Shown one piece after another: positions 17,031 through 60,707 of a stretch of DNA of 64,000 nt. Below the pieces are notes generated by a model. That model saw nothing but the letters and a program-made list of their open reading frames with translations. It had not been told where the DNA came from and did not search any database. Source of the stretch: Rhizophlyctis rosea (Eukaryota; Chytridiomycota; Chytridiomycetes; Rhizophlyctidales; Rhizophlyctidaceae); assembly GCA_027596075.1 (NCBI GenBank), contig JADGJC010000072.1, positions 8,834-72,833 of the forward strand. The letters are read 5' to 3'. Every line of letters starts with the position of its first letter. Position 1 is the first letter of the stretch. A program made the position numbers and the translations under genes.

Positions 17031-18116
17031 ATGACTAAAGCACCCCTCATCGTCTTCGGCGGCGGCGCCTTCTGGGACGGAAACGAAGAAACCGGCAAGA
17101 CCTGGCTTCAAACCCTTGAGCGACTAGGTATCACGCACATCGACACTGCTCGCATCTACGGTGAGAGCGAGACTGTGCTGGGTAATTTAGGGGCGCCCAA
17201 GAAGTTCAACATTGACACCAAAGTTCCCGTGAGTATGAGCCATGTGTACTTTGTTATGCTTCTATTCAAGATGTTAACGGAGTTTCCTTTTTGTGTAGTT
17301 CGGACCCAAGGCCCAAACCAAGGAAGCTGTCTTTGCGGCTCAGAAGGCCTCGTTCAGCAACCTCAAAGTAGACAAGGTCAGATTCCTCATCGTGAGCATT
17401 CAATGTGAACAAACGCCTGAACATCATCATCACCTTCACTCAACCAGGTGGACATCTACTACCTCCACGGCCCCGACTCTGAAACCCCCATCGAAGAAAC
17501 CCTGGACGCAGTCCAACAAATCTACACCGCAGGTCACTTCAAACGTTTCGGCCTCTCAAACTTCAAACCAGATGCCGTCGAAAAAATCCACGCATACAAC
17601 TCTCAAAAAGGTTACGTCCTCCCTACCGTCTTCCAAGGCAACTACAACCCCGTCTCCCGCCACATCGAAGAAGACCTCTTTCCCGTTCTCCGCCGTCTAA
17701 ATATCAGCTTCTACGTCTACTCCGCCATCGCCGGCGGCTTCCTCTCCAAAACCGTCGAGCAGATCAAAGCGGGCGGTGAGGGGCGGTGGGACCCAAACAC
17801 TCCGCTTGGGCAGATGTACCATAAGCTCTATAATCGTGGGAAGGTTGTTGAGGGGTTGGAAGAGTGGGCCAAGATTGCGGAGGATGCAAGTGTATCGCGG
17901 TCGGAGCTTGCATATCGGTTTATTGCGTTCCATTCGGCTGTGAAAGCGGATAAGCGTGATGCTATTATTGTTGGGGCGTCAAAGCCGGAGCAGTTGGAGG
18001 AGACGGTTAAGGGTTTGGGGAAGGGGCCCTTGCCCCAAAGTATCGTGGTACGGATTGACAAAGTTTGGGAGTTGGTGAAGGAGGACGCACCGTACAATAA
18101 TGCGGAGCAATTTTAG
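17031..18116 (+). CDS. Aldo-keto reductase, AKR7 (aflatoxin aldehyde reductase)-like
   Basis: Three exons (17031-17228, 17299-17376, 17448-18116) give 314 residues. The catalytic tetrad is visible: Asp38 and Tyr43 in HIDTARIYGESE, Lys64 in TKVP, and His99 in YYLHGPD. QGNYNPVSRHIEEDLFP and a C-terminal S/K-x-x-Q-LEE stretch (SKPEQLEETVKGL) match the AKR7 pattern of NADPH binding. Such enzymes reduce aldehydes and ketones in the cytosol, including toxic dialdehydes and succinic semialdehyde; the substrate here is not known. The ATG follows a pyrimidine-rich leader (CATCACAAAATG). The gene is single and not in a cluster. Confidence 0.92.
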
Positions 18117-44392: not shown

Positions 44393-45908
44393 ATGAAACA
44401 CAAAAACACACCGTCAACTCTACCCACCGACAGCTGCCTCCTCCTGAACGCAAGCGCAATACCCACGCTCCTGTACATGCCATATATCACACCAGTCATT
44501 CCAATAACCATTGCTCCTCCATCAGACACCTCTTCTCTAACACTACATGCACCTGAATCCTCACCGACGGCTTATGCACAATCCGATAACATGATGGACA
44601 CAATACACATAACGTCGCCGGCCTTGAGGGAAGTCAAGAGGGAGGATGAGGACATAATGATGACGGAGGTGAAGACGCCGGTGAAGTTTTTGTTGCCGGC
44701 TCCGGCGGATAATGCTGGGCGGAAGAAGAGGGGGAGGGATTTTACGGATGAGGAGAGGGCGATTAAGAAGGCTGTTAGGTTTGTTATCAAGTCATCTTGC
44801 ATTGTGGTTCAAAGTTGGAGAAGACTAACGATTTGGCTGTAAACAGGGAACAAAAGAACCGCGAAGCCGCATCTCGCTCCCGCCAACTGCGGAAGAACCA
44901 GCAAAATCAGCTGGAAACCATCAATGCAACGTTATTGCAGGAGGGCGACCAGTTGCGGAAACGGCTGTGCACGCAGGAGGATGTCAACAAGCGGTTGATA
45001 GAGAGACTTGATGCGTTGACAAAGGAGATCGACACTCTAAAGAACGCAATGAGCGGAGCGGGTACCCCAGCCGATATCCTCCCGCCGCCCTATGCCCCAC
45101 CAACCCCCATCTCCGCCCACTCCTCCTCCCCAATCCTCATCGACGACGACACCGACACATCCCCATCAACATTCTTCACCTCCACACCTTCAAGCATCCA
45201 ATCACCCTTCACACCCGCCGAATCCAACAACACCCTAGCTGACTACTTCGCCACCCTCCTCGGTCCCACCACATCAGCAACAACCGACACCCCACCCCCC
45301 TTCACGGACTTCACCCTCCTAACCGACACCGACCCCATCCTCCCCACCACACCCTCCACAACCTCCCTAGACGACATCCTCTTCACAATCCTCACAACCC
45401 CCACAACCCCCACAACTCCCACACTACCCGCCCGAACAACTCACAAAAACCAAAAAGCCAGCCACGCCGAACCAGCAGCGTTCGACACCCAATCCCTGCC
45501 GCGGACCCGGCTGGCTTCCTCCTCTCCCCCTCACCCCTCCTCATCCCCCAACCACCCCACGACGACCCTGACGCACCAACTCCAGATGCAAACCATGGTC
45601 CTCCTAGCGGTGGTAATGATGACGGCACGGATGGTACGGCCGGAAGTATGGAGGGTTCTTGTGAGCGTTTGGTGCGTCTGTGTGTGGGTCGTCAGCGGGA
45701 GGGTGCGGAGTTTGATGGCGGAGTGTCTTTGTCCTCCTCACCAGAAGACGGAGGAGATCCGCTCCGCGTTGTGGAGGACGAGACTTGGGATTGGAGGGCG
45801 TTTATCGTTGCGCCCGAAGAGGGTGGTGACGACGGAGAGAGGAAGGGGGGTTTGGAATGGGGGGACTGCGACCTTACGCAGTTTGCGGAATCGGTTTTGG
45901 AGTCCTAA
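44393..45908 (+). CDS. bZIP transcription factor, HAC1/XBP1-like (spliced form)
   Basis: Exons 44393-44778 and 44847-45475, then 45499-45908 after a proposed 23-nt unconventional intron, give 474 residues. Residues ~100-130 (AGRKKRGRDFTDEERAIKKA) resemble the segment before the XBP1 basic region. The basic region is QKNREAASRSRQLRKNQ, with the bZIP N-x3-A-A-x3-R signature adapted as NREAASRSR. The zipper has leucines at heptad positions (LETINAT, LLQEGDQ, LRKRLCT, one Q, LIERLDA, LTKEIDT). A Thr/Pro/Ser-rich activation-like region follows (~180-335). After the frame switch the tail is acidic (DDPDAP, GGNDDGTDG, VVEDETWDWRAF). The frame change is seen directly. Its cause, Ire1 cleavage in the unfolded protein response, is inferred. 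A conventional intron (45480-45607) would also restore frame, with a weak GTTCGA donor. Confidence 0.8.
45476..45498 (+). other. Candidate 23-nt Ire1-type unconventional intron
   Basis: The 5' site lies in a perfect hairpin: stem CGAAC (45468-45472) pairs with GTTCG (45480-45484) around loop CAGCAGC, cut after 45475. The 3' site lies in loop CTGCCGC (45496-45502) on a short stem TCC/GGA, extended beyond a 3x3 internal loop by CC/GG, cut after 45498. Both loops match CNG|CNGN. The excised 23 nt equals 2 modulo 3, as do the 26-nt XBP1 and 20-nt hacA introns, and joins the zipper frame to the acidic frame. The borders are not GT-AG. Confidence 0.7.
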
Positions 45909-46107
45909 AGGTCCGTTTATGATAAATAGTGAGTGCGTAGTAGCACTTGCGGCCGCGTTACTCATCATGCAAATGGCGCGGGGTTGGCAGATGTGGGGTT
46001 GGAGGTTTGATCGCATGGGTGCAAGAGATATGGATGATCTGAGCAAGCTTACGTTTGGGCATAGCTTTAGTTTGAGGAGGAAGAATATGAAGGGGTGGAT
46101 GATGTAA
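45499..46107 (+). other. Alternative C-terminal frame of unspliced bZIP mRNA
   Basis: If the 23 nt stay in the mRNA, translation continues in the original frame to TAA at 46107, giving 548 residues. This frame overlaps the spliced frame for ~410 nt without a stop and runs 200 nt beyond it. It encodes a strongly hydrophobic stretch (VWRVLVSVWCVCVWVVSG, about 45647-45700) and a weaker one (CVVALAAALLIMQMA). In XBP1u a hydrophobic segment in the unspliced frame takes the nascent chain and its mRNA to the ER membrane. A similar role here is inference; the openness could also be an accident of GC-rich codons. Confidence 0.5.
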
Positions 46108-46505: not shown

Positions 46506-46688
46506 TACGCAAAGGCCTTGAGGATATAGTCAGTATGTGTTGTTCGGTGTCAAGCAGTGAGCGAAGGGACACATACCTGATAGCTCCCTCCTTCGACCCC
46601 CGCGCCGATAGCGTAAACGAGGATGACAGTGGATAGCAAGGGATCATCAACCTGAAGCGAAAACCTGATGTCGATTATTCAATCCCCA

Positions 46689-46945
46689 GAGGATGGTAAG
46701 AGTAGCAAAAGGACAACTCAAGTATGGCTGCCGGCTACTCAATGCTCGCAACCTACACCATGAGGATGGTAGATGGATAGCAAAAGGACGGTTCAGGTGT
46801 GGCTGCCGGCTATCCCAATTCTCTCACCTACGCCATGAGGATGGTATGAGTAGCAAAAGGACAGTCCACATGTGACTGCACGGCTGCTCAATCCTCTCGC
46901 CCATTGAGGATGGTAATGGTGGCGAAAGCAACCTCACAGGTCGGG
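46689..46945. repeat. Tandem repeat, ~72-bp unit, 3.5 copies
   Basis: Four copies of GAGGATGGTA start at 46689, 46762, 46837 and 46906, giving units of 73, 75 and 69 bp. Each unit continues with a TAGCAAAAGGACA-like core and GGCTGCCGGCTA/TCTC. The last copy is partial and more diverged. Confidence 0.8.
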
Positions 46946-47923
46946 GCACACCAATCCTCTGATACTTGTGTTTGGCTCTCGGCTTGTCGTGACTGAGTAG
47001 GAGCCGGGACTGCAGTTCATGCTGTTGGGGTGGGCGGGACATGGCTCTGTCTTTACAGGGGCTTGCCACCCTCATAACGATGAGGTCATGGCGACATTAC
47101 AGTCCCCGCCTAGACTTGTCCCCGGGCGGATCCCAGGGTCGGGTAGACTTGCGGGATTGATGGTCGATGACTTGAATGGCCGATGGAGGAACCGACGAAG
47201 GTTCGGGATGCGGGATTAGAGATGGATGGGGATGGATGCGAGACTCGCGATGGGAGGCGGCAACGTTGTCGATGCGGGGACATAAAGTGGAGAATAGAAA
47301 TGGGCCGAAAATATTAGTAAGGTGTTCAGAGAATGTGTGAGTTCAGTTCGCTCCGTTACCCAAGATGTACGCCTTAAATTATTGTAAGATCTGTGCATTC
47401 AAACGGTCGGCTCTTTCTGCCGCGAGCAACACGATACAACATGGGCCCGTAAACTCCGCAGGGACTCTGCAGTGGACGCGAACCAATGCCAACATGAAGC
47501 TGACGACAATTCGATATGCGCTATCCCATGGGATACCCCGCTAAGGGAGATGAATGCATGCCAGCGTAACAGCTTGTCCTCTCCCAGCCCCATCCAGGTA
47601 ATAACACCCTCCCCGCCATCCGGTTACAGGTCCAAGTGCGGGTCCAAGTCCCACGTGAGCAGGTCCTGGGGTCCCTCCCTTAGTCCCGCTGCCTTTCCTA
47701 ACTCGGGTGCACTACCCTTCAGGAGACGACCTTCCATGGCACCTTGACATTTCCTCCAAGCATGCCCAGAGTTCCTGCCAAGACGTTGCTCCACTTCTAT
47801 GTAGGGAGGCTTCCAAATATTTCTGTTTTACGATACTTACATTCTTAGTTTCCGCTGCATGTATGTTGACATGCTCGACGTAGACAACGACCTTGCGATG
47901 ACGGCAAGGATGGAGGATGAAAC

Positions 47924-59311: not shown

Positions 59312-60707
59312 ATGACGGGTCTTCAGTCCAGCTGTATCGTGTTCCTTGCGCTCACAACTCTTGGCAGCCTCAACGTCGCCAATGGCGTTGAAGCGGCCCC
59401 GACAACCACATCGCGCATCGCTGCCCGGGAAAGTGGATATGAGAAACCGAGTGCGTGCCAGAAGCCTTTGATCCGGAAAGAATGGTATGCTCTCCCTTGC
59501 CACCCGACCCAACTACCTGACAGATGAGGGAAACAACTCACTAGCCATTGCCGCCTCCAAACAGGCGTAAACTCAAGAAGAGCGAGCAAAAGTCCTACCT
59601 CGATGCCGTTCTGTGTCTGGGTAAAAAGCCCGCCATTGCAAAGAAAAGTGCACCAGGAGCCATCTCTCGGTACGACGACTTTGTCGGCGTCCATGCCAAG
59701 CAAACTGGGGAGATCCATTTTGTGGGCTACTTCCTGCACTGGCACCGATACTACGTGCACGCGTTTGAACAGGCTTTGAGGAAAGAGTGCGGATACAAAG
59801 GTGCTCAACCGTATTGGGACTATACATATGATGTTACGAAGGGCGGTAACATGACTTCCTGGCCTGTGTTCGATAAGACTTATGGTAATACTGGATCTTG
59901 TCGCTTTACACTTATCATGGCTATTGCTTGACATGATTTACAGGTTTCGGCGGTAACGGACCGTACGTCGAATACGTCTCCTTCATTCCGGGCCGCACTG
60001 GAGGCGGCTGTGTTCAAGATGGTCCTTTCACCTACCCCCAATTCTCTCTATCAATCGGTCCCGCTCCCCTCCCTCCAAGGTTTGACATTCCCCCGCCCGC
60101 CGCCAATGCCACAACAACGACCACTGCAACCACGGCGACGACCACGACAACTGCAACCGTAGCACCCTCACCAGTTACACCCTCCCTCCCCAAAATGTCC
60201 GACTTCTTCCCCCCAACCAACCTCACCATCTCCAACCCCCACTGCCTAAAACGCGATTTCGCCCAGCAATACCTCTCCGATCAAGTCAACAAAACCAACT
60301 ACGACTATGTCCTCTCCCAAAAGACTTTTGCCGATTTCACCTGGTACCTCGAAGGTGGACCCTCCGTCACCAACGTCGGCACCCTCCATGCCGGCGGCCA
60401 CTTTGGCGTCGGCGGCTCACTCGGCGGAATGGCGGATCCGTACCTGTCTCCTTCCGACCCGATGTTCTACATGCATCACACGAACTTGGATAGGGTTTGG
60501 TGGAAGTGGCAGAAGGCGGATAGGAGTGGGAAGAGGTATAGGGAGTATGCGGGGCCTATTGTGGCGTTTGATTATCAGAATACTGTTAAGGGAAATGTTA
60601 CGGCGGAATATGTGACAGGGTTGGATGAGTTGGGGAAGGGGGTTCAGTTGAAGCAGTTGATGGATACGAAGGGTGGGTTTTTGTGTTATGATTATGAGGA
60701 GCTGTAG
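59312..60707 (+). CDS. Tyrosinase, secreted, with Thr-rich insert
   Basis: Three exons (59312-59484, 59565-59884, 59944-60707) give 418 residues. A signal peptide (MTGLQSSCIVFLALTTLGSL) precedes EWRKLKKSEQKSYLDAVLCL. The CuA site has His101 and His109 in VHAKQTGEIHF, and His118 in FLHWHRYYVH. The CuB site has HAGGHFGVGG and DPMFYMHHTNLDRVWWKWQ. AQPYWDYTYD is also conserved. The enzyme oxidises phenols to quinones for melanin or cross-linking. A low-complexity insert (TTTTTATTATTTTTATVAPS) sits between CuA and CuB, unusual for fungal tyrosinases. Several N-glycosylation sites fit secretion. There is no C-terminal blocking domain, so it may be a short, constitutively active form. Confidence 0.93.

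Follow-up and report, generated by a model that had tools for sequence, protein, structure and literature searches.

A probable HAC1/XBP1-type bZIP gene of Rhizophlyctis rosea whose predicted Ire1 splicing would exchange a hydrophobic tail for an acidic one

We analysed a stretch of 64,000 nucleotides of Rhizophlyctis rosea DNA (hereafter the window) and found in it what is very probably a HAC1/XBP1-type bZIP gene with a 23-nt Ire1-type intron, the predicted stress splicing of which would swap a hydrophobic tail for an acidic one. We infer splicing by Ire1 as well as ER targeting; the cutting step appears well supported by the anatomy of the element, and tethering to the ER is suggested by conservation and hydropathy. 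A paralog found in the same genome (44.1 Mb in 634 contigs were searched) would act as another such switch, its intron being 17 nt long. The initial annotation had called the window gene the unfolded-protein-response switch of this organism; the Ire1-type element was found again, but the gene is one of two such genes.

The features discussed here are collected in Table 1. Within the window gene, the basic-region intron is followed by the bZIP, a Pro/Ser/Thr-rich stretch and then the twin-hairpin element, so that the predicted Ire1 element is located after the zipper. The predicted spliced protein matched PF00170 with 33.3 bits, over the cut-off. The deposited R. rosea protein P0001 (HDV00_011301), which begins at the ATG at 44591, corresponds letter for letter to this bZIP gene with a different exon join. 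Other features were seen in the window: pieces of an aldo/keto reductase gene (17421-18113, plus strand, PF00248, 128.2 bits) and of a tyrosinase domain gene (59937-60704, plus strand, PF00264, 84.3 bits). Tandem copies of about 80 bases (GGATGGTA ... TAGCAAAAGGAC ...) were noticed by eye 3' of the bZIP gene at 46680-46950. A match to the Twister-P1 ribozyme RF03160 lies on the minus strand at 47039-47103, with 51.2 bits, below the curated 67.2, an E value of 1.7e-8 over the window and most of the consensus core letters in place.

Table 1. Coordinates of the bZIP gene, its predicted Ire1 element and related loci (positions in the window unless a contig or locus is named)
Feature	Coordinates	Strand	Remarks
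First exon of the bZIP gene	44393..44778	+	start codon uncertain
Conventional intron, basic region	44779..44846	+	68 nt, GTTTGT...AAACAG
Second exon to the predicted 5' Ire1 cut	44847..45475	+	carries the remainder of the bZIP
Outer exon-exon helix, 5' strand	45455..45463	+	9 bp
5' splice hairpin	45468..45484	+	loop CAG|CAGC, 5-bp stem
Predicted Ire1 intron	45476..45498	+	23 nt, 2 mod 3; cuts after 45475 and 45498
3' splice hairpin	45493..45505	+	loop CTG|CCGC, 3-bp stem
Outer exon-exon helix, 3' strand	45509..45517	+	9 bp
Predicted spliced-frame tail	45499..45908	+	acidic; stop TAA 45906-45908
Unspliced-frame tail (frame 0)	45476..46107	+	TAA at 46105-46107
Conserved hydrophobic region, frame 0	45583..45717	+	likely ER-targeting; 31/45 identical in P0002
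Second frame-0 hydrophobic peak	45913..45969	+	mean hydropathy 1.88; past the spliced stop, near the frame end
Paralog element, second bZIP gene	L005:1803-1863 (contig C587)		Ire1-type element, predicted 17-nt intron
RtcB-like gene	C279:166835-168095		three pieces, one TGA inside a matched stretch
Trl1-type ligase	C152:63993-64229		

The two hairpins reported in the initial annotation were found where it had placed them: the loop CAGCAGC (45473-45479) is presented on the perfect stem CGAAC/GTTCG (45468-45472/45480-45484) and, 23 nt further on, CTGCCGC (45496-45502) sits on the shorter stem TCC/GGA (45493-45495/45503-45505). Both loops fit the motif CNG|CNGN, as it is given in a passage of PMC6037481. 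The initial annotation had missed the perfect 9-bp outer helix that surrounds both hairpins, and it is this helix that makes the element a Hac1/Xbp1-type structure. When both strands of the 64 kb were scanned for pairs of CNGCNGN loops, each on a stem of 3 bp or more and both enclosed by an outer helix of 6 bp or more, the element was the sole place found. In 100 first-order Markov simulations (2-kb blocks), arrangements with stems 3/3 and an outer helix of 7 averaged 0.04 per 64 kb, and those with stems 5/3 and the same outer helix 0.00.

The Rfam model of the Hac1/Xbp1 intron, RF04247, matched 45456-45516 over its full length and with all three helices at 30.6 bits (E 0.0028 over 1.9 kb, 0.093 over the window), and the paralog was matched in the same full-length manner at 30.3 bits; both values lie under the curated gathering score of 41 bits. 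A genome-wide search with the model, in which 73 of 2117 candidates were scored, returned nothing at E up to 10, which we take as the limit of a first look, because cmscan finds the element on the same bases. The claim therefore does not rest on Rfam alone: at a score below the curated one, the element is not filed as a member of RF04247, and its other features carry the claim.

Folding speaks in part against the element: on their own, both RNAs favour another inner fold, by 2.3 kcal/mol for the window element and by 0.7 kcal/mol for the paralog. The stability of the paralog element was ordinary (z -0.79; 39 of 200 shuffles as good), and that of the window element had a z of -2.88 (1 of 200). 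The cut exon ends are predicted to re-pair with -21.1 kcal/mol in the window gene and -14.4 kcal/mol in the paralog, values that carry no shuffle control; such re-pairing of exon ends is needed by the zipper described for XBP1 in a passage of PMC6037481.

An ordinary intron at 45480-45607 would also join the frames: its 128 nt are 2 mod 3, it has GT...AG ends, and position 45568 holds a CTGAC-like site. Its donor GTTCGA, however, is unlike those of the two conventional introns here (GTTTGT and GTGTGT), its GC content is 0.65, and it accounts neither for the loops and the outer helix nor for the paralog; we regard it as barely credible. As for the Ire1 intron itself, the initial annotation had also offered a 26-nt version using CCG|CGGA. 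This variant has a stem of 1 bp and loses one residue from the PAAD junction common with the paralog, while the 23-nt join gives the junction peptide (E/D)PAAD predicted in both genes, and the shorter intron is retained.

A second gene with such an element came from a search of the genome with a related protein, P0002 (described below), which gave five places: two are exons of the window gene, one is the paralog on contig C587, and the remaining two are weak and bZIP-like. The bZIP of the paralog aligned to that of the window gene with a score of 163, reached by 0 of 500 shuffles, PF00170 was over its cut-off, and its conventional intron, of 68 nt, has the place and phase of that of the window gene. 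Both of its loops are CAGCAGC, 17 nt apart (2 mod 3), on hairpins separated by one base and enclosed by an outer helix of 10 bp. Each element finds the other: a model built on the paralog only had its sole match in the window at 45457-45515 (23.7 bits, E 0.00032), and for a model built on the window element only the paralog was the sole match among the 6 loci searched (31.6 bits, E 1.6e-6). Of 17 comparable base pairs, 11 were unchanged and 6 were changed on both sides, with 0 one-sided changes and 0 broken pairs; the count was made on a hand alignment, MAFFT having put the 3' hairpin wrongly. A chance origin of the element is disfavoured by the geometry scan, the cross-finding models and the two-sided pair changes.

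The predicted spliced proteins have 474 aa (window) and 427 aa (paralog). If spliced as predicted, the 17 nt of the paralog would undercut the 19 nt that a passage of PMC6222058 gives as the lower limit. A loose twin-loop pattern occurred at 5 places in the 44 Mb genome, and all three helices were found in only the window gene and the paralog; the other three places, with stems of 1/1, 1/4 and 3/5 and outer helices of 6, 4 and 4 bp, were set aside as missing the full helix set. Protein searches for a third such gene returned, besides the window gene and its paralog, the two weak bZIP-like places, where RF04247 was not found at E up to 2. Downstream of the paralog, a 5S rRNA match was seen at L005:2816-2934.

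We then looked at the enzymes. An Ire1 RNase domain was found at one place in the genome, in two exons with adjoining kinase pieces, and the best solved relatives of the RNase and kinase pieces are IRE1; a signal-like start and a membrane-like stretch lie upstream of them, by eye only. The genome also has a Trl1-type tRNA ligase and an RtcB-like gene, and the two ligase types by which XBP1 or HAC1 is sealed elsewhere may therefore coexist in it. Together with the end-to-end RF04247 match, below the curated score, and the paralog with its two-sided changes, these genes support the initial assignment of the element to the HAC1/XBP1 type.

Removing the 23 nt (2 mod 3, as first proposed) fuses the bZIP frame to an open frame that ends at 45908. 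The spliced tail of the window gene has 30 D/E and 8 K/R in 136 residues, and that of the paralog has 27 acidic to 7 basic; such an acidic tail is probably gene-activating. In the unspliced tails the charge is opposite, with acidic to basic residues of 11 to 30 (window) and 5 to 16 (paralog). The predicted spliced proteins are without the frame-0 hydrophobic segments, and that of the window gene retains an N-terminal hydropathy peak of 1.42 if translation starts at the upstream ATG. Codon-position GC was ambiguous: the third position is highest in frame 0, and the excess of first over second favours the spliced frame.

According to the initial annotation, the frame that continues past the element loses its protein-like character. 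We found the contrary: frame 0 remains open as far as 46107, and P0002 conserves its hydrophobic stretch 45583-45717. This protein (HK097_001027), also named R. rosea and deposited unspliced, is 44% identical to the window gene over 336 aligned columns; its PF00170 match is just under the cut-off (26.9 against 27.6 bits). Protein searches, of which the first scored the best 7995 word-sharing candidates, gave no relatives beyond P0001 and P0002. In an alignment set by hand, which agrees with BLASTP over the hydrophobic region, the window gene and P0002 share 54 of 86 residues in the bZIP, 3 of 19 in the linker and 31 of 45 in the frame-0 hydrophobic region. Of the 14 differences in the last, 11 are hydrophobic or Arg/Lys exchanges and 9 have BLOSUM62 values of at least zero. 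The last 58 residues of P0002 resemble the two window tails no more than expected by chance (317 and 63 of 500 shuffles), and no counterpart of the second hydrophobic peak at 45913-45969 was seen in it.

P0002 was seen as protein only. Around the element it retains 15 of 20 residues (ASHxEPAAF ... SLPRxxLAS) with one residue fewer, which implies a predicted 20-nt intron. Random back-translation of this peptide gave a full element in 10 of 20000 sequences, each with 20 nt, compared with 10 of 20000 for the window's own peptide (9 with 23 nt, 1 with 26) and 47 of 20000 for that of the paralog (17 nt); the controls gave 0 of 20000 for the shuffled P0002 peptide and 0 of 14850 for other P0002 stretches. 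The P0002 peptide allows a 20-nt element, and this speaks for the Ire1 reading.

Two further explanations were weighed. One is that no splicing occurs here, frame 0 being the protein and the second open frame chance. Frame 0 is indeed open to its end and conserved in P0002, and its third-position GC remains the highest (0.76 and 0.67), but this explanation accounts neither for the element with its covariation and the statistics of its geometry nor for an acidic second frame in each of the two genes, and we consider it highly improbable. The other, to which we give slightly more weight while still holding it very unlikely, is that an ordinary spliceosomal intron at 45634-45695 (62 nt) joins the frames and the Ire1-like element has no part in it. 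P0001 is the exact translation with this intron, which has GT...AG ends. It would, however, delete half of the conserved hydrophobic region, which is coding in the model of P0002, and at the corresponding codons P0002 has Ala-Cys, where the second codon begins with TG, not GT. The intron is also without a CTRAY branch-like site, has a GC content of 0.58 against 0.38 in the basic-region intron, and leaves the element and the two-sided pair changes unaccounted for.

Between the 5' cut and the stop of the spliced frame, frame 0 is open over 143 codons in the window gene and 142 in the paralog, and it continues past that stop for 199 and 184 nt. After synonymous recoding of the spliced tail, it stayed open in 111 (window) and 784 (paralog) of 5000 sequences, and in 2 and 18 of 5000 it was both open and as hydrophobic. 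Codon shuffles gave a weaker result, leaving it open in 1534 and 957 of 5000 and as hydrophobic in 229 and 10. When the bases past the spliced stop were shuffled, it was still open in 57 and 129 of 5000. The hydropathy of the conserved segment is moderate in the window gene (1.56), compared with 1.36 in P0002 and 1.77 for the paralog's own segment, and shuffled unspliced tails often attain the peak values (109 and 76 of 2000 for window and paralog). Hydropathy alone is weak evidence; the argument is carried by conservation, and for the window gene only, the tail of the paralog having shown no relative. Between the two genes, neither the spliced tails (68 of 500 shuffles) nor the unspliced tails (258 of 500) gave an alignment beyond chance, and homology of the two hydrophobic segments is therefore not shown. 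With these limits, the hydrophobic tail of the window gene is likely a membrane-targeting anchor.

What the anchor would do can be read in two ways. The unspliced protein may be a stored membrane-bound factor like bZIP60U, made from an mRNA with a real Ire1 intron, and not an XBP1u-like mRNA tether. The intron has the 23 nt of bZIP60, as stated in a passage of PMC4891664, and the frame-0 hydrophobic segment is lost on splicing, but a hydropathy of 1.56 seems to fit a weak targeting segment better than a strong membrane span. Nothing in the present data separates a stored factor from a transient tether, and we hold storage to be somewhat unlikely. In the tether reading, which we prefer, the unspliced frame would be translated in the absence of stress and its hydrophobic tail would bring ribosome and mRNA to the ER, like the HR2 of XBP1u. 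Upon ER stress, both loops would be cleaved by active Ire1; with the ends kept together by the exon-exon helix as the intron departs, the Trl1-type ligase would then join them. The new frame would then yield a soluble activator with an acidic tail.

Taken at its widest, this would mean that the fungus runs its unfolded protein response in the animal way and does so twice, from HAC1/XBP1 duplicates with 23- and 17-nt introns in which hydrophobic ER-targeting and acidic tails overlap, a proposal that we make tentatively and hold to be possible. If it is true, XBP1u-style nascent-chain tethering would already have existed in the ancestor that animals and fungi share, and targeting through the 3' UTR, as in yeast HAC1, would be a derived state. 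Which of peptide and 3' UTR targeting came first is a question that early fungal branches can test, and a chytrid with conserved, overlapping animal-type frames would be direct evidence on it. A pair of predicted Ire1 targets in the same genome, one with a 17-nt intron and hairpins one base apart, would also be a natural test of the minimum for Ire1 and ligation. In the titles and abstracts listed by searches of an openly licensed library, we found no report of two Ire1-spliced bZIP genes in one fungus, nor of an HR2-like segment in fungal Hac1, although Hooks and Griffiths-Jones 2011 may cover chytrids; the "two HAC1" in passages of PMC8071499 and PMC6222058 are splice variants and deletion strains.

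Among known systems, plant bZIP60 is alike in its 23-nt intron and in that splicing removes the transmembrane segment of the unspliced protein (PMC4891664, in part), a likeness by description, not by sequence, only the bZIP being in common at the level tested. The initial annotation had spoken of a metazoan-sized intron; 23 nt was right as a length, but it is that given for plant bZIP60 and not the metazoan 26. Fungal HAC1/hacA (yeast, Candida, Verticillium) likewise has an Ire1 twin-hairpin intron in a bZIP gene. According to passages of PMC8071499, V. dahliae combines a conventional with a 20-nt unconventional intron and has a longer potential unspliced protein, of 526 against 417 aa. Because of this Verticillium protein, a long unspliced frame as such is not new, and the conserved hydrophobic segment is the new point. 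Unlike in R. rosea as proposed here, in yeast the HAC1 mRNA reaches Ire1 through an element of its 3' UTR and not through a peptide (PMC9217131, in part), and the exchange of a hydrophobic for an acidic tail has so far been described for animals rather than yeast. In animals, XBP1 mRNA finds Ire1 via a nascent hydrophobic peptide, as a passage of PMC9217131 has it, and the HR2 of XBP1u draws ribosome and mRNA to the ER (PMC9217131 and PMC4138184, in part). The likeness to the XBP1u tether lies in a conserved hydrophobic frame-0 segment that is absent from the predicted spliced protein. Metazoan XBP1, in the same passages, is further alike in its bZIP, its twin 7-base loops and its short intron of 2 mod 3, as well as in a hydrophobic segment after the splice site in the unspliced form and another tail in the spliced frame. 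It differs in its intron of 26 nt (PMC9217131, in part), against 23 and 17 nt in R. rosea, which moreover has two genes, and a Trl1-type ligase beside an RtcB-like gene.
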